Positions 37,304 through 47,132 of a DNA stretch of 48,052 nt are shown piece after piece. Within the stretch, counting starts at the first letter, position 1. Each line of letters starts with the position of its first letter. Made by a program: the position numbers and the translations under genes. Under the pieces are notes generated by a model that worked only from the letters and a program-made list of their open reading frames with translations, ran no database searches and was not told where the DNA came from. The stretch comes from Acidobacteriota bacterium. Its GTDB lineage: Bacteria > Acidobacteriota > Vicinamibacteria > Vicinamibacterales > UBA2999. The stretch covers positions 1 to 48,052 of the forward strand of contig JAQBVV010000007.1 in NCBI GenBank assembly GCA_027622905.1, read 5' to 3'.

Positions 37304-38128
37304 ATGCCTCTACAGGTCGAACGCGTTTCGTTCGGATACGACCCCACACACGACACATCAGACGAGTCGGCCCGATCCTTCTCGCTGGTCGACATGTCCC
37401 TGTCTGTCCAGCGCGGGTCGATCACGGGGCTCCTCGGCCCGAACGGCTGCGGCAAGACAACCCTGCTCAAACTGATGGCAGGCGTCCTGCGCCCGCAGAC
37501 GGGTGCGATCACGCTTCGCGGCCGCGCGATCGGCCGCATGCCGCGGCGTGAACTGGCCCGACAGATCGCTGTCGTCCCGCAGGAAACGCATCCGGCTTTC
37601 GACTACAGCGTCCTCGAGATGGTGCTCATGGGACGACACCCGTACCTCGGAGCCTTCCAGCTTGAAAGCCCGAAAGACGTGGCCCTGGCCTACGACTCGA
37701 TGTCGACCACCGGCACGGCCCACCTGGCCGAGCGCTCCTACATGACGCTCAGCGGTGGAGAAAAACAGCGGGTCGTGATCGCCAGTGCACTGACGCAGGC
37801 GCCCGATATCCTGCTCCTCGACGAACCGACGGCATCGCTTGATCTGGCCTACCAGATGGAGGTCGCGTCGCTGCTGCATCGACTCAATCGTGACAGTGGC
37901 GTCTCGATGGTGCTGGCGACGCACGACCTCAACCTGGCGGCGTCGCTGTGTGACTCCCTGGTGCTGGTCCGATCCGGGCGTGTCCTCGCCCACGGCCCGA
38001 CTCGCGATGTGCTGACCGCCGCGATGATCCGGCAACTCTATGATGTCGATGCAGACGTCCACGTGCACGAAGCGTCGGGCCACCTGACCGTGGTGCCCAT
38101 CCGGCACGTCTCCGGAGAAGCGCCGTGA
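37304..38128 (+). CDS. btuD: Cobalamin (cobamide) ABC transporter ATP-binding protein
   Basis: 274 residues, cytoplasmic ATPase of the FecE/BtuD class. Walker A GPNGCGKTTLLK at about residues 46-57, Q-loop VVPQETHPAF, signature LSGGEKQRVVIASAL and Walker B DILLLDEPTASLDL are intact, with ATHDLNLA as the switch. The gene is the first behind the riboswitch, which makes cobalamin rather than an iron siderophore the likely cargo. AGGAAACG precedes the ATG. Confidence 0.92.
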   Translation: MPLQVERVSFGYDPTHDTSDESARSFSLVDMSLSVQRGSITGLLGPNGCGKTTLLKLMAGVLRPQTGAITLRGRAIGRMPRRELARQIAVVPQETHPAFDYSVLEMVLMGRHPYLGAFQLESPKDVALAYDSMSTTGTAHLAERSYMTLSGGEKQRVVIASALTQAPDILLLDEPTASLDLAYQMEVASLLHRLNRDSGVSMVLATHDLNLAASLCDSLVLVRSGRVLAHGPTRDVLTAAMIRQLYDVDADVHVHEASGHLTVVPIRHVSGEAP

Positions 38129-38159
38129 TTCCCCTTCCCGGCGCCGCACCGGGCATGCC

Positions 38160-39206
38160 GTGACTGTCATGGAGTCAACACGCGTGCTGACCCGTGCGCG
38201 ACCGCGACCGATCCGAGCACGACTGGCCGTCACGCTGCTGGCCTACGGCGCGCTCGCGCTTGGCATGTGTCTGCTGGCGCCGCTGGTGGGTAGCACGTCC
38301 ATCAGTCTCGCCCGCGTTTTTGACCGTTCGATTCCATTCGCCGACAACGTGGACGCGCAGATCTTCTTCATTGCCCGGCTGCCCCGCGTGCTGGCGGGCG
38401 CGATCGTCGGTGCCGCGCTCGCCTCGGCAGGTGTGGTGTTGCAGGCGCTGCTGCGCAATCCTCTCGCGACGCCGTTTACCCTCGGCGTCTCCGCTGGCGC
38501 CGCGCTGGGGGCGATCCTGGCGATTTCCTTCGGCGCCGCGACCACCCTCGGCCCGCTGTCGCCGGTGCCACTCGCCAGCCTGGCCGGCGCATTTCTCGCC
38601 GCAGCCATCGTCTATGCCATGGCCACGCGGCCGGGGCGACCCATCTCGACATCGGTGCTGCTGCTTGCCGGCGTCACGCTGAACTCGTTTTTCTCAGCGC
38701 TGATCCTGTTCGTCCAGTACATGGGCGACTTTGCCGAGACCTACCGAACCGTTCGCTGGCTGATGGGCGACCTCGACGTCGGTGGATTCGGTCCGATCAT
38801 CGGCGCGCTGCCGCTGATCATCGTGGCGTTCGTCATCTTCGCGCTGCTGTCCTCGTCACTGAACGTGCTGAGTGTCGGCGCCGAGACGGCGGCAACCCGC
38901 GGCGTGGACGTGGGGCGCATACAGCGCCTGGCCTTCATCAGTTCCGCGCTCGCGACCAGTGCCGCTGTCTCACTTGCCGGACCCATCGGTTTCGTCGGCA
39001 TCGTCGTGCCGCACCTGGTACGTCTGATGGCAGGCGTGGACCACCGGATCGTGCTGCCGGCGGCGGCGCTGTTCGGTGCGGCGTTTCTGGTGGCGTGCGA
39101 CCTGGTGGCGCGAACGGTGCTTGCGCCCGTCGAAGTGCCGGTCGGCGTGGTCACGGCTTTGCTTGGAGGACCGTTCTTTCTATGGCTGCTCATCCGAAAA
39201 GGCTGA
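38160..39206 (+). CDS. btuC: Cobalamin ABC transporter permease (BtuC/FecCD family)
   Basis: 348 residues, about ten membrane helices. FecCD-family blocks include RLPRVLAGAIVGAALASAGVVLQALLRNPLATPFTLGVSAGAALGA in the first half (quoted landmarks RLPRVLAG and RNPLATPFTLG) and GPIGFVGIVVPHLVRLMAG, DHRIVLPAAALFGAAFLVACD near the end. The gene starts with GTG (ATG three codons later also usable) and overlaps btuF by 25 bases. Confidence 0.92.
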   Translation: MTVMESTRVLTRARPRPIRARLAVTLLAYGALALGMCLLAPLVGSTSISLARVFDRSIPFADNVDAQIFFIARLPRVLAGAIVGAALASAGVVLQALLRNPLATPFTLGVSAGAALGAILAISFGAATTLGPLSPVPLASLAGAFLAAAIVYAMATRPGRPISTSVLLLAGVTLNSFFSALILFVQYMGDFAETYRTVRWLMGDLDVGGFGPIIGALPLIIVAFVIFALLSSSLNVLSVGAETAATRGVDVGRIQRLAFISSALATSAAVSLAGPIGFVGIVVPHLVRLMAGVDHRIVLPAAALFGAAFLVACDLVARTVLAPVEVPVGVVTALLGGPFFLWLLIRKG

Positions 39207-40108
39207 TCCTCTTCGCCGCGGTCGTCGCCGCGACGATCGCAACCCCGGCGACCGCCGAGGCCCAGGCCGGTGCCGACAGGCAGGCGCCGGACACTCGGGT
39301 GGTCGACGACGGCGCGCCAGCCAGACGAATCATTTCGCTCGTGCCCGCCCTGACCGAGATGCTGTTTGCCATCGGGGCGGGTGCTCAGGTGATCGCCGTC
39401 AGCAGCTACGACGAGTTCCCGCCGGCGGTCGACACGTTGCCGCGGGTGGGCGCGCTGCTGGATCCAGACGTCGAACGTATCCTCGCGCTTCGCCCGGATC
39501 TCGTGATCACCTACGGGTCGCAAAGCGCGCTCGAGGCCCAGCTCTCCAGGGCGGGCGTCAGCACGTTTACCTATCGCCACAGTGGCGTGGCCGGAGTGCT
39601 TCAGGCGATGCGCGACCTTGGCGCGGCGACAGGTCTCGCGGCGTCGGCTGAGCTCGAGGCCCGCCGCATTCAGGCGCAACTCGATGCCGTGCAGTCGCGG
39701 GTCCGCTCCCGCCCCCGCCCGCGCACGCTGCTGGTATTCAGCCGGCAGCCGCAATCGCTGCAGCAGATGTACGTGAGCGGCGGCACCGGCTTCCTCGACG
39801 ACGTGCTCCGGATTGCTGGCGGCGACAACGTGTTCGGGGACGTCCCGCGGGAATCCGTGCAGCCCTCGCACGAAACCTTGCTCGTGCGCGCCCCCGAGAC
39901 GATCGTCGAGATCCACGCGACAGGCATGCTGGCAGCGCCGGACCTGGAAGGCGAGCGGATCGTGTGGTCGCGGCTGGCTTCGATCCCCGCAATTCGGGAC
40001 GGCCGGCTTCACTTCCTGGAGGGCTCGTATCTTGTGGTTCCCGGACCACGTATGGGACTGGCCGCCGAGGCGCTGGCGCGCGCGCTGCACCCGGAGGCCT
40101 TCGAATGA
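39182..40108 (+). CDS. btuF: Periplasmic cobalamin-binding protein BtuF
   Basis: 308 residues starting at the ATG inside the end of btuC. A signal peptide (hydrophobic stretch 8-24, cleavage near TAEA) is followed by a class III binding protein: RIISLVPALTEMLFAIGAGAQVIAVS, LRPDLVITYGS, SGGTGFLDDVLRIAGGDNVF and WSRLASIPAIRDGRLHFL. It delivers cobamide to BtuCD. Its stop shares ATGA with a 40-codon ORF. Confidence 0.9.
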   Translation: MAAHPKRLILFAAVVAATIATPATAEAQAGADRQAPDTRVVDDGAPARRIISLVPALTEMLFAIGAGAQVIAVSSYDEFPPAVDTLPRVGALLDPDVERILALRPDLVITYGSQSALEAQLSRAGVSTFTYRHSGVAGVLQAMRDLGAATGLAASAELEARRIQAQLDAVQSRVRSRPRPRTLLVFSRQPQSLQQMYVSGGTGFLDDVLRIAGGDNVFGDVPRESVQPSHETLLVRAPETIVEIHATGMLAAPDLEGERIVWSRLASIPAIRDGRLHFLEGSYLVVPGPRMGLAAEALARALHPEAFE

Positions 40109-40227
40109 CGATCCTGCTGTCGTGGCGAGAACATGCGCCCCTATCGCGAGGATCGGACTTCGTTCGCCGCGACGCAGGGACGACAGACCCAGCTGCCCCT
40201 GGTGGCGCGTCGACGGGAACGGCATGA
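40105..40227 (+). CDS. Possible 40-residue ORF linking the two btuF genes
   Basis: It overlaps btuF by ATGA at 40105 and the next gene by ATGA at 40224. The product begins MTILLSWREHAPLSRG and is polar, with a Gly/Thr/Ala-rich end. No family is recognisable. The double coupling could mean a real leader-like peptide or the remains of the next gene's lost N-terminus. Confidence 0.3.
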   Translation: MTILLSWREHAPLSRGSDFVRRDAGTTDPAAPGGASTGTA

Positions 40228-41123
40228 GCAGCTATCGCGGATTCCAGGGGCGCACAGCTCCCGAGGAACCTCGGGCGGTCTCTCGTGCCAGAGGAGCACC
40301 ACGACCGCCCGCCAGGCAGAAGCGAAATCCGCGCTATCCGTCGCGCATCGTGTGTCTCACTGAAGAGACCACCGAAACCCTCTACCTGCTCGGCCAGGGT
40401 GACCGCGTTGTCGGGGTCTCCGGCTACACGATCAGGCCTCCGGAGGCGCGTCGCAAGCCTCGCGTGTCAGCCTTCCTCAACGCGCGATTCAGCAAGATCG
40501 AAGCGCTGAAGCCCGATCTGGTGCTTGGATTCTCGGACCTCCAGGCAGACATCGCCGCCGAGCTCATCCGCCGTGGCTACCCGGTAACGGTCTTCAACCA
40601 GCGGAGCGTCGCCGAGATCCTGCAAATGATCCGCGTCCTGGGTGGCGCGGTCGGGTGCGCCGACGACGCCGAGGCCCTCGCGGCCAGGCTGGAACTCGAG
40701 ATCGACGCCGTTCGTGAGGCAACCTCCGGGTTGCCCCGACCGCGCGTGTTCTTCGAGGAGTGGGACAACCCCCTCATCTCAGGCATTCAATGGGTGGAGG
40801 AACTCGTCGAGATCGCGGGCGGCGCCCCGATCTTTCCGGAGCTTCGACAGGGAAAGATGGGACGGGACCGCATCGTCACGGCGGAAGAGGTGGTGCGTCG
40901 GGACCCCGAGGTCATCATCGCGTCCTGGTGCGGCAAGGCCGTGCGAAAAGAACGGATCGCGACGCGGGTCGGCTGGGCGAATGTCGCCGCCGTCCGTCAC
41001 GGACACATCCATGAAATCAAGTCAGCGCACATCCTGCAGCCAGGTCCGGCCGCGCTGACCGAGGGCCTCCGGCAACTGCACGACATCCTGACGCGGGTCA
41101 GGGCAACGTGTGCCACCGCGTAG
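40224..41123 (+). CDS. Second cobalamin-binding (BtuF-like) protein, no signal peptide
   Basis: 299 residues from the ATG that overlaps the preceding stop. Residues about 48-295 resemble substrate-binding proteins of the BtuF class: RIVCLTEETTETLYLLGQGDRVVGVS, LKPDLVLGFSDLQADIAAEL, LISGIQWVEELVEIAGGAP, WANVAAVRHGHIHEI. The first 47 residues are basic and Pro/Arg-rich, without a hydrophobic core, so export is not evident. It may be a cytosolic cobamide-binding protein, or the true start may be wrong. It ends the riboswitch-controlled operon. Confidence 0.8.
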   Translation: MSSYRGFQGRTAPEEPRAVSRARGAPRPPARQKRNPRYPSRIVCLTEETTETLYLLGQGDRVVGVSGYTIRPPEARRKPRVSAFLNARFSKIEALKPDLVLGFSDLQADIAAELIRRGYPVTVFNQRSVAEILQMIRVLGGAVGCADDAEALAARLELEIDAVREATSGLPRPRVFFEEWDNPLISGIQWVEELVEIAGGAPIFPELRQGKMGRDRIVTAEEVVRRDPEVIIASWCGKAVRKERIATRVGWANVAAVRHGHIHEIKSAHILQPGPAALTEGLRQLHDILTRVRATCATA

Positions 41124-41221: not shown

Positions 41222-41251
41222 TTGAGCTTCTCAAGAACCGGTGTCTATAAT
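41222..41251 (+). promoter_or_regulatory. Sigma70-like promoter of the acyl-carrier operon
   Basis: TTGAGC and a perfect TATAAT are separated by 18 bases. Transcription would start near 41258, about 65 bases ahead of the ACP gene. The -35 box is half of an inverted repeat TTGAG-ctt-CTCAA (41222-41234), a possible operator. Confidence 0.65.
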
Positions 41252-41322: not shown

Positions 41323-41631
41323 TTGAGAGATAAACAGCAGATCATCGAATCGATTTACCGGGCGATCGATGAGTTCAACGTGCTCGTGCCGCCGCCCGCA
41401 CAGCTCGACAAGTCGCCGTCGACCGTGCTGTTCGGCGAACACGGGCGCCTCGACTCGCTGGGACTCGTGTCGCTGATTCTCGACGTCGAGGGTCAGGTCG
41501 AAGCAGACTTCGACATGTCGGTGTCTCTGACGAGCGAGCGAGCGATGTCTCGAGACACGAGCCCCTTCCGAAGCATCGATACACTGGCCGACTACATTTC
41601 GGAGCTCCTGGACGAGCAGCAGGGTGGCTAG
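41323..41631 (+). CDS. Acyl carrier protein
   Basis: 102 residues starting at TTG, six bases after GGAG. The phosphopantetheine-attachment Ser is in GRLDSLGLVSLILDVE at about residue 44. Helices before and after fit an ACP, but it is longer than FabD-pathway ACPs because of an insertion near LTSERAMSRDTSPF. It should carry an acyl group for the enzymes encoded directly downstream; the SDR start overlaps its end by eight bases. Confidence 0.85.
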   Translation: MRDKQQIIESIYRAIDEFNVLVPPPAQLDKSPSTVLFGEHGRLDSLGLVSLILDVEGQVEADFDMSVSLTSERAMSRDTSPFRSIDTLADYISELLDEQQGG

Positions 41632-42325
41632 CCCAAGGATCGTCCTCATCTCCGGTAGCCGCCGGGGTATCGGCGCGGGGCTGGTCAACTACTTTCTGGC
41701 GCTGGGCGATACGGTCGTTGGCTGCAGCCGGGGGCCGTCAGGCCTTTCTCACGAACAACACACCCATTTCGAACTTGACGTGGCTGACGAGCCGGCCGTG
41801 AAGCGGATGTTTCGTGACGTCCGTCAGGCTCACGGACGTCTTGACGTGCTGGTCAACAACGCGGGCGTGGCGTCGATGAATCACGCCATGCTGACTCCCG
41901 TCGACTCGGCCAGACAGGTTCTTGACACCAACGTGATCGGCACCTTTCTGATGTGCAGAGAGGCCGCCAAGCTCATGAGACGCGCGGGAGTCGGCCGCAT
42001 CGTGAACCTGTCCACCGTCGCTGTGCCGCTCAGGCTCGAAGGGGAAGCCCTGTATGCCTCATCGAAGGCCGCCGTCGAGATGCTCACACGGGTGCTCGCG
42101 AAGGAGTTCTCGGATTTCGGCGTCACGGTGAACGCCGTCGGCCCGTCCCCCATCAAGACCGATCTCGTCAAGGGCGTACCCCCGGACAAGATGGATGCGA
42201 TCATCGACCAGCAGCACATTCCCGAGTGGGCCAGTGTCAACGATGTGGCGAACATCGTGGAGTTCTTCGCCAGACCCGAGAGCCGGTTCGTCACCGGGCA
42301 GGTGATCTATCTGGGTGGATTCTGA
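41624..42325 (+). CDS. SDR family oxidoreductase, ketoacyl-ACP reductase-like
   Basis: 233 residues with GTG start overlapping the ACP gene. Cofactor motif SGSRRGIGAGL at about residue 10, NNAGVAS, catalytic Ser in NLSTVAV and the Tyr-x-x-x-Lys of ALYASSKAAVEML are all intact. It probably reduces a 3-oxoacyl group on the adjacent ACP, but another carbonyl on a sugar or acyl substrate is possible. The stop touches the next start with no spacer. Confidence 0.88.
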   Translation: MASPRIVLISGSRRGIGAGLVNYFLALGDTVVGCSRGPSGLSHEQHTHFELDVADEPAVKRMFRDVRQAHGRLDVLVNNAGVASMNHAMLTPVDSARQVLDTNVIGTFLMCREAAKLMRRAGVGRIVNLSTVAVPLRLEGEALYASSKAAVEMLTRVLAKEFSDFGVTVNAVGPSPIKTDLVKGVPPDKMDAIIDQQHIPEWASVNDVANIVEFFARPESRFVTGQVIYLGGF

Positions 42326-43693
42326 TTGTTCATTGATTTCCTGAGTGGCATCTTCCAGGAGTTTCGCGATCAGCCATGGATGATCTGGAAGAACAGCGAG
42401 CACACGTATGGCTCTCTCGGGCAACAGATCCTCACCTGGGGCCGGACGCTGGACGCTCAGGCGGTGGGGCCGGGGGACGTCGTCGCCCTCACCGGCGATT
42501 TCTCGCCCGGCTCGGTGGCCGCGTTTCTGGCCCTGGTCGAGCGACGGTGTGTCATCGTGCCTTTGACCGAGGCGGTCGCCAAGAAGCGCGATGAGTTCTT
42601 GAGCGTGGCGCAGGCGAACGTGTCGATCGCCTTCACCGGCGGCGATGCCCACGAGGTGGCGCGTCTCCCCGCAACACCGGATCATACGCTGTACGCCGAC
42701 CTCCGCGGTCGCGATCACCCGGGCCTGGTACTCTTTTCGTCTGGTTCGAGCGGCAAGAGCAAGGCGGCGGTACATGATCTCGTCCCGATGCTGGAGAAGT
42801 TCAAGCTCCGGAAACGCCGCATGCGCACGATCGCGTTTCTGTTGTTCGATCACATCGGCGGCGTCAACACGATGTTCTACACCCTCTCCAACGGCGGCAC
42901 GCTGGTCGTCGTGCCAGACCGTTCGCCCGACTCGGTCCTTGGTGCGATCGAGCGCCATGCCGTTGAACTGCTCCCCACGTCGCCGACCTTCATCAATCTC
43001 ATTCTCCTGAGTGAGGCGTATCGTCGTCACGACCTCTCCAGCCTGACCACCGTGACATACGGCACCGAGCCGATGCCGGACTCGACGCTGACGCGCTTCG
43101 CGGAGATCGCGCCCCACGTGAAGATGCAGCAGACCTATGGCCTCTCCGAGCTTGGCATCCTGCGCTCCAAGTCCCGGGACTCGCGTTCGACATGGGTCAA
43201 GATCGGCGGCGACGGCTTCCAGACACGGGTGGTGGACGGCATCCTGCAGATCCAGGCCGTCTCAGCCATGCTTGGCTACCTGAATGCGGAGAGCCCGTTT
43301 ACCGACGACGGCTGGTTCGACACGGGAGATCTGGTCACCGTGGATGGCGAGTACATGCAGATCCACGGCCGCCGCTCGGAATTGATCAACGTCGGGGGCG
43401 AAAAGGTCCATCCGGCTGAGGTGGAGAGTGTCATCGAAGGCTTGCCGTCGGTCGCCGAAGTCACCGTCTACGGCGAGAAGAATCCCATCGTCGGGCAGAT
43501 GGTGTGCGCCAGGGTAAGGAAGGCGGACGATACGCCCGACGGCGTTGTCCGCCGGGATATCAAGCAGCTCTGCGCACAACGGCTCGCGCGGTTCAAGGTT
43601 CCGGTGAGAATTACGTTTGCATCGGCACCCCAGCACAGCGCCAGATTCAAGAAACAGCGACATCATGGTGACGAGCCGCCGACGGTCTCGTAA
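42326..43693 (+). CDS. Acyl-AMP ligase (ANL superfamily adenylate-forming enzyme)
   Basis: 455 residues with TTG start directly after the SDR stop. AMP-binding motif LVLFSSGSSGKSKAAVHDL is near residue 133, then FDHIGGVNTMFY, the QTYGLSELG motif, GWFDTGDLV and the hinge/C-terminal block GRRSELINVGGEKVHPAEVE. The terminal Lys region reads SARFKKQR. It is shorter than typical acyl-CoA synthetases. It should activate a carboxylic acid as acyl-AMP and load it on the operon's ACP (inference from context). Its stop overlaps the next ATG by one base. Confidence 0.88.
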   Translation: MFIDFLSGIFQEFRDQPWMIWKNSEHTYGSLGQQILTWGRTLDAQAVGPGDVVALTGDFSPGSVAAFLALVERRCVIVPLTEAVAKKRDEFLSVAQANVSIAFTGGDAHEVARLPATPDHTLYADLRGRDHPGLVLFSSGSSGKSKAAVHDLVPMLEKFKLRKRRMRTIAFLLFDHIGGVNTMFYTLSNGGTLVVVPDRSPDSVLGAIERHAVELLPTSPTFINLILLSEAYRRHDLSSLTTVTYGTEPMPDSTLTRFAEIAPHVKMQQTYGLSELGILRSKSRDSRSTWVKIGGDGFQTRVVDGILQIQAVSAMLGYLNAESPFTDDGWFDTGDLVTVDGEYMQIHGRRSELINVGGEKVHPAEVESVIEGLPSVAEVTVYGEKNPIVGQMVCARVRKADDTPDGVVRRDIKQLCAQRLARFKVPVRITFASAPQHSARFKKQRHHGDEPPTVS

Positions 43694-44805
43694 TGCCAGA
43701 TCCGCGCATCGTCAGCTACACCCTCCAGCAACTGATCGACGACCCGGACGCGCTTGCGGCCTACGACGACCCCGGGGGGTACCTCGGTGAGTCCGGCCCT
43801 CGCTGGCTCGAGTTCCTCCGCGGGAATCCTCGAGGGAGACCGGACGACCTCGCGATCGTGTTGACCATCGTTGGCAATCGCGTCGTCGGCAGCCTGCGAT
43901 CGATTCCCGTCGAGTTGCGCATCGACGGCCAGACGATCCGGAGCGCCGCGCTGCGTGCGTTCTTCCTGGACGCTGAATGGCGCGGTGGCGGCGCGGGCGG
44001 CCTGATGCTCCTTCGCGCGTTGAGTACCACGCGTTCAGCGATCGCGGCCGGAGGACCGAGACCGGAAACCGTCGCGCTGTACACCGGGGCGGGCTTCACG
44101 ACCCTCGGTCCGTTGTCGCGCCAGGTGTACTTCAACTCGACGCGGCCACTCATCGCGACGGCGTGCCGGGGTCTCCCGTTCGTACCACGGGTCTCGACGC
44201 TCCTTGATCCGATCGTCGGGCTCTACTATCGCGCACGTTCGCGCCCATCGGATCCGCGGATCCAATTCACGGCTGTCGAGCGGTTCGCCGAGGATCTGGA
44301 CCGGCTGCTTGCGGCGCGATCCGATGACCACATGGTGCGCGAGTCCAGCGACCTGAACTGGGTGCTGCAATACAGTCGAGGCGTGTCCGCCTACGAGATA
44401 CGGGATGGCGACGCCCTCGCCGGGTATTGCCTGATCCGGACCGAGGATCGGGCAGCGACGACGGTACCTCTCCGGTTACCTCCGATGCGCGTCACGTCTG
44501 TCCTGGATTTTCACGTCGCCGGTCCTGAGCCGAAGATGCTGGACCAGCTCGTGCTGCATGCGGTCGCGTGCTCGAAGGCCGACAGAGCCGAGGTGCTGGA
44601 GATTCAGACCAATCGACCGGATCTCCTGCGGTGCCTCAAGAACACGGGATTCGTCCGGGCGGGCGGCTACAAGGTACTCCTCAGGACACCCCCGAACGTG
44701 CCCGCTGATCCCGCCCGCTGGCGCATGGCCGAGGCGCAGGGTGACGTCCTGTTCTCCGCCCTGCATGTCACCCGACCGCCGGCGCCGGTCACCCCGGCAA
44801 TATGA
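43693..44805 (+). CDS. Two-domain GNAT-type acyltransferase
   Basis: 370 residues. The N-terminal half has a GNAT acyl-donor loop in FFLDAEWRGGGAGGLMLLRAL (from about residue 90), followed by LYTGAGFTTLGPLSRQ. The C-terminal half repeats the general fold (AYEIRDGDALAGYCLIR, VLEIQTNRPDLLRCLKNTGF) with a poor donor loop. It may move the acyl group from ACP to an amine. Both flanking genes overlap it by one and four bases, placing it firmly in the operon. Family name not recognised beyond GNAT-like. Confidence 0.7.
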   Translation: MPDPRIVSYTLQQLIDDPDALAAYDDPGGYLGESGPRWLEFLRGNPRGRPDDLAIVLTIVGNRVVGSLRSIPVELRIDGQTIRSAALRAFFLDAEWRGGGAGGLMLLRALSTTRSAIAAGGPRPETVALYTGAGFTTLGPLSRQVYFNSTRPLIATACRGLPFVPRVSTLLDPIVGLYYRARSRPSDPRIQFTAVERFAEDLDRLLAARSDDHMVRESSDLNWVLQYSRGVSAYEIRDGDALAGYCLIRTEDRAATTVPLRLPPMRVTSVLDFHVAGPEPKMLDQLVLHAVACSKADRAEVLEIQTNRPDLLRCLKNTGFVRAGGYKVLLRTPPNVPADPARWRMAEAQGDVLFSALHVTRPPAPVTPAI

Positions 44806-45518
44806 CGACGCTGCGCGCGCCACTCGAGGTGATCGTCAACGCCGATGACCTCGGCCTATCGAAACATGTCAACGCGGAGATATTCCGGTTGATCGACGCG
44901 GGTCGCGTCACCTCGGCGACGCTGATCGCCAACGGGCCCGCGATCGAAGAGGCGAGCCGGCGGACGCGCGACGTCCCCGGCGTATCGTTCGGGGCACACC
45001 TCAACCTCACCGAGTTCGCGCCGCTCACGGGCCCTCGGGGGCTCGGTCCGCTCGTGGACGCGGACGGGGGCTTCCTGGGAAACATTCGACGCGTGAAGAT
45101 ACGTGCCGCGCTCAGGCAGGCCATCCGGGCCGAGTGGAACGCGCAGATCGGCCGGCTCAGAGCGCTTGGCATCGACGTCAGCCACATCGACTCACATCAT
45201 CACGTCCACACGATTCCAGGCTTGTTCAGCACACTCAAGGCCGTTCAACGGGACTCTGGCATTCGCAGAGTCCGCATCAGCAAGAACGTCTTCGCCCGTC
45301 GCGAGCGTCCGGCGATGGGGCTGATCGCCAGGAAGGCGATCTGGAATGCAGCTCTGCGCAACTACGTCAGGACGAAGACGACCGACGCATTCACAGACCT
45401 GGCGACCATGATCGGCGGAACGCCAGGTGAGCGCCCGCCTGGCCGAACGCTTGAGCTGATGGTCCACCCGGGCAGCCCGGTCTTCGCGCCAGAAACCGCC
45501 GCCCTGGAAGGTGAGTAG
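44802..45518 (+). CDS. YdjC/ChbG-type carbohydrate deacetylase, truncated by an amber codon
   Basis: 238 residues to the TAG at 45516. The catalytic pattern of the ChbG/HpnK family is visible: VIVNADDLGLSKHVNAEIF, GAHLNLTE, HIDSHHHVHTIPGL (metal His cluster) and LELMVHPGSP. These enzymes remove N-acetyl groups from amino sugars or their oligomers or lipid-linked forms. Beyond TAG the same frame continues WRRFDYPISARSYLDI to TGA at 45567, which resembles the family's normal C-terminal strand. Thus a nonsense change or sequence error is likely; the core domain is complete. Confidence 0.82.
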   Translation: MTTLRAPLEVIVNADDLGLSKHVNAEIFRLIDAGRVTSATLIANGPAIEEASRRTRDVPGVSFGAHLNLTEFAPLTGPRGLGPLVDADGGFLGNIRRVKIRAALRQAIRAEWNAQIGRLRALGIDVSHIDSHHHVHTIPGLFSTLKAVQRDSGIRRVRISKNVFARRERPAMGLIARKAIWNAALRNYVRTKTTDAFTDLATMIGGTPGERPPGRTLELMVHPGSPVFAPETAALEGE

Positions 45519-45596
45519 TGGCGCCGCTTCGACTACCCCATCAGCGCGCGCAGCTACCTGGACATCTGACTTGAGGGTACGCCGAAGCGGGGACGG

Positions 45597-47132
45597 TCAG
45601 GCCGCCGGCTGCTCGCCCGCTCGCGTGGTGCCAGGCACCATGAGATCTGGCAGCGGTGGCGCCGCAAACATCTTCTGCAACAGCGAGAAGCCGAGCCCTC
45701 CCCACTTGGTCGCGCGAGACGCGCGGGCGCTGTCGGTCGACAAGCCTGTATTCCCGAACGCCTGGAGCATGACCTTGGACGCGACCACGAAGGCAATACG
45801 GCTCTTGTAGCTCTTGAGAATGTCAGACCGCCTCCAGGCGGCTCCCAGGCTGTAGAAATCGTTCCACACCTGCTGCGTGCCCTGGCGGATCTGCTCACCA
45901 GACATGACCGGGTGCGGGGTGAGCAGCTTCGGCCGCTTTCCCTGTGGAATCAGCCAGTGGCGCGACACCGGAATGCCATCCACCGTCGCCATGTTCTCAC
46001 CCTGCTCCCGCTCCCACTTCTCGAAATCCAGCGTGCCCGGGAACGGCGTCAACGTCACGAACTGCGCGAAGGCGATATCGGCTCGCTTGGCCAGCGAGGC
46101 TGTTGCCTCGAATGTGTGCGGACGGTCACTGGGGAGACCGAAGATAAACGAGCCGAGGATGTAGATCCCGTGCTTGCGGAACGTCTGCAAACGCTCCACC
46201 AGATCCTCGCCCGCCAGGTTGAAGTCCTTGTAGACGTCCTTCAAGCCTTCCGGGGTGACGGCCTCGACCCCGACCAGCGCACCTCGAATGCGCGCCGCCC
46301 GCATCGCGTCGAGAAATTCCGGATCCTCGGCGGATTCCATCGTGATCTGCGTAAAGAAGTTCAGGTCGCTCGGCAGCTCCGCCATCAGCGCCATCAGCTC
46401 GAAGCGCTCGTCCCGGAGCGCCTTCAGCTCGTTGTACCTGGTCTTGTCCGCACGGCGGGACGCCATCCTGAGATCCTCGAGCGTCACCGGGTAGAAGTTG
46501 TCGTCCGCCAGCGCGATGAAACGGAAGCCCATCCGCCGCAGCTCGACGATCTCTTCGATGACCGGGTGCACGTCGCGCTGACGCGGCTCCTGCCCATCGG
46601 TGCGCCACACCGAACAGAACGAGCAATGCTTGGGACATCCGCGGACGGTCTGTACTGTCGCCCACGCATAGCTCTCACGCTTCATCAGGTCCCAGCGCGC
46701 TTTCCTGAACTTGCCGGCGTCGATTCGTCCGCCGTTGTAGATCGGCTGCGGTGCGCCACTGACGCAATCCTCGATCACCTGCGCCCAGACATCGTCACCG
46801 TCGCCCTTCACGACGGCGTGCGCGCCGCCCCGTTCGAGCGCCTCCTCCGGAAACAAGGTCGGATGGCTGCCGCCGTACACCACCCACGCTCCTCGTGCAC
46901 GGGCACGCTGACCGAGTTCGTAACCGACCAGCGCGTTGCCCGTGTGAAGGCCAATGCCAACGACGTCGCCCTTCTCCAGCCTGTTCGTGTCGAACGGCTC
47001 CAGCGACTCGTCGCTCAGGATCGGATCACCCCATTTCGCGGGCGTGGATGCCGCAAGCACGAACATCCAGCGCGGGGTGATGAAAGCGGTCCCGAATGAA
47101 AAGTGACTTGGATTGACGATGTGTACGCGCAC
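45597..47132 (-). CDS. B12-binding-domain radical SAM protein
   Basis: 511 residues with GTG start five bases after AGGGAG. Residues 1-140 resemble a cobalamin-binding domain (VGIGLHTGNALVGYELGQRA, WVVYGGSHPTLFPEEAL), although the usual DxHxxG is not exact. Cluster-binding CPKHCSFC sits in VRGCPKHCSFCSVW at about residue 165. Downstream blocks FIALADDNFYP, LVGVEAVTPEGLKDVYKDFN and GSFIFGLPSD match the class that acts on lipids, hopanoids and tetrapyrroles. The reaction is unknown; radical methylation or C-C bond work is plausible. It converges on the acyl operon. Confidence 0.85.
   Translation of the reverse strand: MRVHIVNPSHFSFGTAFITPRWMFVLAASTPAKWGDPILSDESLEPFDTNRLEKGDVVGIGLHTGNALVGYELGQRARARGAWVVYGGSHPTLFPEEALERGGAHAVVKGDGDDVWAQVIEDCVSGAPQPIYNGGRIDAGKFRKARWDLMKRESYAWATVQTVRGCPKHCSFCSVWRTDGQEPRQRDVHPVIEEIVELRRMGFRFIALADDNFYPVTLEDLRMASRRADKTRYNELKALRDERFELMALMAELPSDLNFFTQITMESAEDPEFLDAMRAARIRGALVGVEAVTPEGLKDVYKDFNLAGEDLVERLQTFRKHGIYILGSFIFGLPSDRPHTFEATASLAKRADIAFAQFVTLTPFPGTLDFEKWEREQGENMATVDGIPVSRHWLIPQGKRPKLLTPHPVMSGEQIRQGTQQVWNDFYSLGAAWRRSDILKSYKSRIAFVVASKVMLQAFGNTGLSTDSARASRATKWGGLGFSLLQKMFAAPPLPDLMVPGTTRAGEQPAA

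Follow-up and report, generated by a model that had tools for sequence, protein, structure and literature searches.

The window, i.e. the whole stretch of 48,052 nucleotides that was analysed, represents an entire contig within a draft genome of 3.43 Mb that is 97% complete. Five genes of its forward strand (41323-45518) encode an acyl carrier protein (ACP), an SDR reductase, an adenylate-forming ligase, a protein that we read as a tandem GNAT-type acyltransferase and a YdjC/ChbG-type deacetylase (Table 1). The first-pass annotation had described five packed genes with zero or negative spacing under one shared promoter. The packing is borne out by the open reading frames, by their coordinates (intergenic spacings of -8, 0, -1 and -4 nt) and by a simple codon model, which gave a coding score for all five frames. 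The base composition of the cassette is about that of the contig. A single sigma-70-like site, which is the putative shared promoter, was found ahead of the first gene, and a TATAAT is likewise present upstream of the cassette in G016, the closest relative having these genes.

Table 1. Positions of the features of the cassette in the window.
Feature	Position	Strand	Characteristics
Promoter-like site TTGAGC-18-TATAAT (putative)	41222..41251	+	sigma-70-like, 10/12 match; 0.4 expected in shuffles
Acyl carrier protein (ACP), 102 aa, TTG start	41323..41631	+	LDSLG with Ser45; conservation in relatives
SDR reductase, 233 aa	41624..42325	+	SGxxxGxG at 10, YxxxK at 144; adh_short_C2
Adenylate-forming ligase, 455 aa, TmlQ/MupQ-type	42326..43693	+	AMP-binding and AMP-binding_C; motifs
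Tandem GNAT-type acyltransferase (as read here), 370 aa	43693..44805	+	R97xxGxG loop; distant relatives matching GNAT models
YdjC/ChbG-type deacetylase, 238 aa	44802..45518	+	PF04794; motifs NADD, AHLN, HIDSHHH, HPG
In-frame TAG of the YdjC gene	45516..45518	+	TGG in relative G016; TGA later at 45567-45569

The end of the unit had first been placed at 45569, which corresponds to a second stop (TGA), the first in-frame stop being the TAG of the YdjC gene. After this TAG the frame remains open for 16 codons that are still alignable to the G016 protein. With a single draft genome as its source, the TAG may reflect a wrong base call, incipient decay of the gene or a true loss of a short tail. Immediately upstream of the cassette (37304-41123) are found the genes of an ABC transporter ATPase, a permease and, side by side, two periplasmic binding proteins (PF01497), a set of the cobalamin/siderophore type. 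On the other side, a convergent B12-binding radical SAM gene (45597-47132, reverse strand) displays sub-threshold scores to several methyltransferase/cyclase families.

The first protein has no significant match in Pfam or NCBIfam and was identified as an ACP because of its DSLG motif (S45) and its conservation in relatives. The Ser of the LDSLG motif, the predicted phosphopantetheine site, is present in both the window and the G016 proteins, and the family is characterized by a long segment ending in SPFR ahead of the last helix. BLAST similarity with TacpD, the ACP of the thiomarinol set, is not significant (best E 0.099). The second protein matches the Pfam family adh_short_C2 (E 2e-48) and contains the glycine loop and the YxxxK motif. 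The SDRs of the cassettes constitute their own clade of 28 sequences (SH-aLRT 99), apart from FabG and from TmlS, so that orthology with TmlS/MupS was not found in this tree. The window genome encodes a separate FabG, so the housekeeping role does not fall to the cassette SDR.

The ligase matches the Pfam families AMP-binding (E 3e-33) and AMP-binding_C and includes the motifs SSGSSGKSK, YGLSE and DTGD and the C-terminal Lys region FKKQR. It is a member of the MupQ/TmlQ family: in a tree obtained with FastTree, TmlQ is nested among the cassette ligases in a clade of 26 sequences (support 1.0), apart from other adenylate-forming enzymes, and the window ligase shares 38% identity with TmlQ over 443 columns. 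The thiomarinol plasmid pTML1 carries a ligase-SDR-ACP-polyketide synthase set that we take to be TmlQ-TmlS-TacpD-TmpF, the record naming the ligase only "fatty acid-CoA ligase". Relatives of the ligase adjoin polyketide synthases in pTML1 as well as in Bradyrhizobium and Burkholderia. On a plasmid of Burkholderia stagnalis and on plasmids of Bradyrhizobium (L127 and L128), a large polyketide synthase and a hydrolase accompany a TmlQ-like ligase with its SDR and ACP, and these sets resemble the mupirocin starter cassette.

The fourth protein gave no significant direct match in Pfam or NCBIfam, the best direct Pfam hit being Acetyltransf_9 (E 0.089). Distant homologues of equal length were detected with E values from 1.6e-9 to 1e-5 per genome; among these relatives, L013, L016 and L018 match Acetyltransf_9/Acetyltransf_1 above the cut-off, L018 in both halves. 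The protein also contains an R97-x-x-G-x-G loop of the acyl-CoA/pantetheine type. Through these relatives and this loop it is placed in the GNAT superfamily, and we read it as a tandem GNAT. Two AlphaFold models of it are poor (mean pLDDT of 47 and 43), and the Foldseek matches of these low-confidence models, mostly N-myristoyltransferases in first place and other GNATs, nearly all with a TM-score below 0.3, were used in support only. The protein thus shares with Eis-like and N-myristoyltransferase-like tandem GNATs relatives that match GNAT models and fold matches of weak models, but it differs from them in forming its own rare subfamily and in its donor, presumed to be an ACP. Searches of 198 relatives, of 162 genomes from the order and of 301 from the phylum of L019 detected this subfamily in only three genomes, those of the window, G016 and L019. 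A scan of the genome contigs with the GNAT recovered no relative.

The fifth protein belongs to the YdjC deacetylases (Pfam E 3e-46; PF04794 with 159 bits against a cut-off of 29.7) and conserves the metal-ligand motifs NADD, AHLN and HIDSHHH. It has family and motifs in common with the chitooligosaccharide deacetylase ChbG/YdjC (7vi8), from which it differs by its operon context and by the C-terminal tail cut by the TAG. No obvious export signal was seen by eye, which would fit a cytoplasmic acyl-ACP donor. An HpnK-like deacetylase beside a B12 radical SAM gene could also suggest N-acylation of hopanoid glucosamine. The YdjC protein scores 103 bits to HpnK and the neighbour on the other strand 58 bits to HpnJ, but both scores are far below the curated cut-offs and the radical SAM gene is not beside the cassette in G016. 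This explanation appears extremely improbable, and a hopanoid acceptor was rejected as squalene-hopene cyclase is unmatched in the window genome and in G016, unless it was missed in assembly gaps.

In G016, which belongs to the same family, the five genes are found in the identical order, with identities of 69% (ACP), 71% (SDR), 71% (ligase), 61% (GNAT) and 62% (YdjC). The flanks differ from those of the window: cell-shape/RNase G-like genes are located on one side and a sugar dehydrogenase-like gene, which is on the other strand and is the sole sugar-related neighbour, on the other side. This synteny led us to reject a chance grouping of five genes. The first four genes are present in L019, a contig labelled Chloroflexi for which a binning error is possible (ligase 73% and GNAT 54% identity). 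There the neighbours of the cassette include three glycosyltransferases and a sugar transferase, i.e. it lies in a glycan gene cluster, and a search of the genome found no relative of YdjC. Contiguous ACP-SDR-ligase triplets were detected at 22 loci belonging to 12 phyla by their record labels; L118 (in part), L119 and L121, loci of very high GC content, are poorly gene-called and were left out of these counts. The cassette based on ACP, SDR and ligase is a real conserved unit, because its first three genes recur adjoining in about twelve phyla. Conservation of the neighbourhood in relatives, on which the first-pass annotation had staked its reading, is therefore wide for the first three genes; it does not extend to the whole set, as YdjC adjoins in two of the three genomes with this GNAT subfamily and the break between GNAT and YdjC in L019 is real.

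The glycan cluster of L019 also bears on another explanation, in which no glycan is decorated and the product is a small N-acylated signal or metabolite (N-acyl amine or N-acyl amino acid), the deacetylase trimming a precursor. The polyketide synthases beside the ligase relatives and the N-myristoyltransferases that come first among the matches of the GNAT models would agree with it. Against it stand the L019 cluster, the mean pLDDT below 50 of these models and the carbohydrate substrates of the YdjC and PF01522 families; we consider it improbable.

What follows the ligase is exchanged from locus to locus. The next gene encodes an AAC(3)-type acyltransferase (PF02522) in L020 and L025, a PF13302 GNAT in L117, a homologue of the window GNAT in L022, proteins of weak similarity in L021, L030 and L042, and a condensation-domain fragment in L024; no family assignment was obtained for the fourth gene of the triplets L023, L035 and L041. 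An AAC(3) protein (PF02522) is also encoded close to a cassette-type ACP in L115. A polysaccharide deacetylase of the NodB type (PF01522) immediately follows the fourth gene in L042 and L035; in L021 and L041 it is found a short distance away. As the core, an acyltransferase and a deacetylase recur with non-homologous parts, the thing that is kept is the reaction type. This recurrence with exchanged parts is the strongest functional argument, and it argues for the exposure of an amine followed by its acylation from ACP.

Two further observations concern such loci. In the same order as the window, the poorly gene-called locus L118 (6461-10879) contains a cassette-type ACP, in the vicinity of which a polysaccharide deacetylase and a GNAT-like protein whose tail reads RGDGDGP are encoded. 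Next to the cassette ACP and the acyltransferases of the AAC(3) type, L025 (10264-11415) and L115 (6161-7300) encode proteins that resemble each other, both of about 380 aa and with no match in Pfam, which possibly represent a further deacetylase family.

We propose that the operon probably encodes a cytoplasmic acyl-transfer cassette, by which an acid is loaded on ACP, reduced and moved to an exposed amine. The ligase would adenylate a short carboxylic acid and attach it to the phosphopantetheine group of its dedicated ACP, and the SDR would reduce the ACP-bound group to a hydroxyacyl. The YdjC enzyme would strip the N-acetyl from the acceptor, for which an amino sugar borne by a nucleotide, a lipid or a glycoside is most likely, and the tandem GNAT would then pass the ACP-bound hydroxyacyl on to the amine thus freed. 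The sequences show the gene order, the conservation, the motifs, the family membership of the parts and their recurrence with exchanged acyltransferases and deacetylases; we infer which acyl group and which acceptor are involved, that acyl-ACP is the donor and in what order the steps occur. Removal of an N-acetyl group and subsequent N-acylation from acyl-ACP is also the logic of LpxC/LpxD (lipid A) and of NodB/NodA with NodF. Those systems use other enzyme families, which are unmatched by the window proteins in profile searches, whereas the cassette has a dedicated ligase. Acid activation, holding on ACP, reduction, amine exposure and acylation had already been suggested from the first reading. 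This outline is supported by the exchanged acyltransferases and deacetylases and by the glycan cluster of L019; the sugar acceptor at this locus is presumed. FdtA likewise gives a glycan context to L120, a variant of the cassette that bears a KAS III gene, and this speaks for the proposed model.

Profiles of Pfam and NCBIfam detected no ketosynthase among the operon proteins, and the kinship of the ligase with TmlQ/MupQ, which the first-pass annotation did not mention, offers a possible answer to a reductase without ketosynthase. Walker and others, who treated both pathways in ACS Chemical Biology in 2020, reportedly found that the thiomarinol set converts succinyl-CoA into 4-hydroxybutyryl-ACP through a CoA/ACP double thioester. 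In the mupirocin system, MupQ, MupS and MacpD make 3-hydroxypropionyl-ACP from malonyl-CoA (PMC10098928). As in the cassette, a ligase from this family is combined in both sets with an SDR and an ACP, and they need no ketosynthase to yield their hydroxyacyl-ACP. They differ from the cassette in that its SDR falls in another clade, its ACP belongs to another family and its gene order is reversed, and their product goes to a polyketide synthase, not to an amine. As the SDR is outside the TmlS clade and the ACP is unlike TacpD, chemistry of the TmlQ type is not established for the whole set. The Mup/Tml mechanism is thus an analogy of moderate weight, the ligase belonging to the family and the set as a whole not. 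By this analogy we suggest, tentatively and with somewhat more doubt than conviction, that the acyl group is an omega-hydroxyacyl (3-hydroxypropionyl or 4-hydroxybutyryl) that, as with MupQ/TmlQ, forms without ketosynthase. In an Idiomarina O-polysaccharide an amino sugar carries a 4-hydroxybutanoyl amide, according to a title cited in PMC7281560 and PMC8074265.

The main alternative is a 3-hydroxybutyryl-like acyl group, which would be supplied as in the viosamine system: housekeeping fatty acid enzymes would provide acetoacetyl-ACP in trans, the SDR would convert it into 3-hydroxybutyryl-ACP, the GNAT would transfer the acyl group to an amino sugar, and the ligase would recycle or load free acid. 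The SDR belongs to a FabG-like superfamily, O-polysaccharides commonly contain 3-hydroxybutanoyl amides (PMC8074265), and L120 is a variant of the cassette with a KAS III (ACP_syn_III) near FdtA. As relatives of the L120 type carry KAS III and FdtA, supplies of the KAS III type and of the ligase type meet in one ACP family. This route nevertheless appears rather unlikely here. The operon is without ketosynthase, the FabG of the genome means that a dedicated SDR requires another reason, and the ligase is constant in the triplet but missing from the viosamine island (PMC3927599). That flagellin glycosylation island contains vioA, vioM, vioT, vioS (KAS III), vioB, vioR and acp and has neither a ligase nor a deacetylase (PMC3927599). 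Its likeness to the cassette consists of an ACP and an SDR that supply the hydroxyacyl amide of an amino sugar. It has in addition KAS III, VioB, an aminotransferase and a glycosyltransferase, and lacks the ligase, the tandem GNAT and the deacetylase of the cassette; conversely, no KAS III, VioB acyltransferase or aminotransferase is found beside the ACP and SDR in the operon. A close likeness to the islands of the viosamine type, with their KAS III, VioB, reductase and ACP (PMC3927599), in which the first-pass annotation saw the nearest known logic, is consequently not supported. Its statement that no described system has this exact set agrees with our literature search, in which no published glycan system combining ACP, ligase and deacetylase was found in the accessible literature; many subscription papers were beyond reach, so that this is no proof of absence.

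Some findings count against the proposed acyl-transfer cassette: within the window no glycosyltransferase or sugar-nucleotide gene adjoins it, no YdjC relative was found in the L019 genome, the fourth gene of L023, L035 and L041 is without family assignment, and the YdjC gene of the window contains an in-frame TAG (decay or sequencing error possible). Its most complete form would be a self-contained cassette with a core in a dozen phyla. Without ketosynthase it would turn a dicarboxylyl-CoA into omega-hydroxyacyl-ACP (3-hydroxypropionyl or 4-hydroxybutyryl) and transfer the acyl group onto freshly deacetylated amino sugars, the acyltransferase and the deacetylase being plug-in parts. Stated with all these details, the model is possible but doubtful. 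If it is true, a ligase family of antibiotic starter units would be linked with the decoration of surface glycans, and a route to hydroxyacyl amides of amino sugars would be suggested for loci with no ketosynthase gene nearby. The succession ACP-SDR-ligase followed by an acyltransferase would then constitute a genomic signature predicting such decorations in uncultured phyla.
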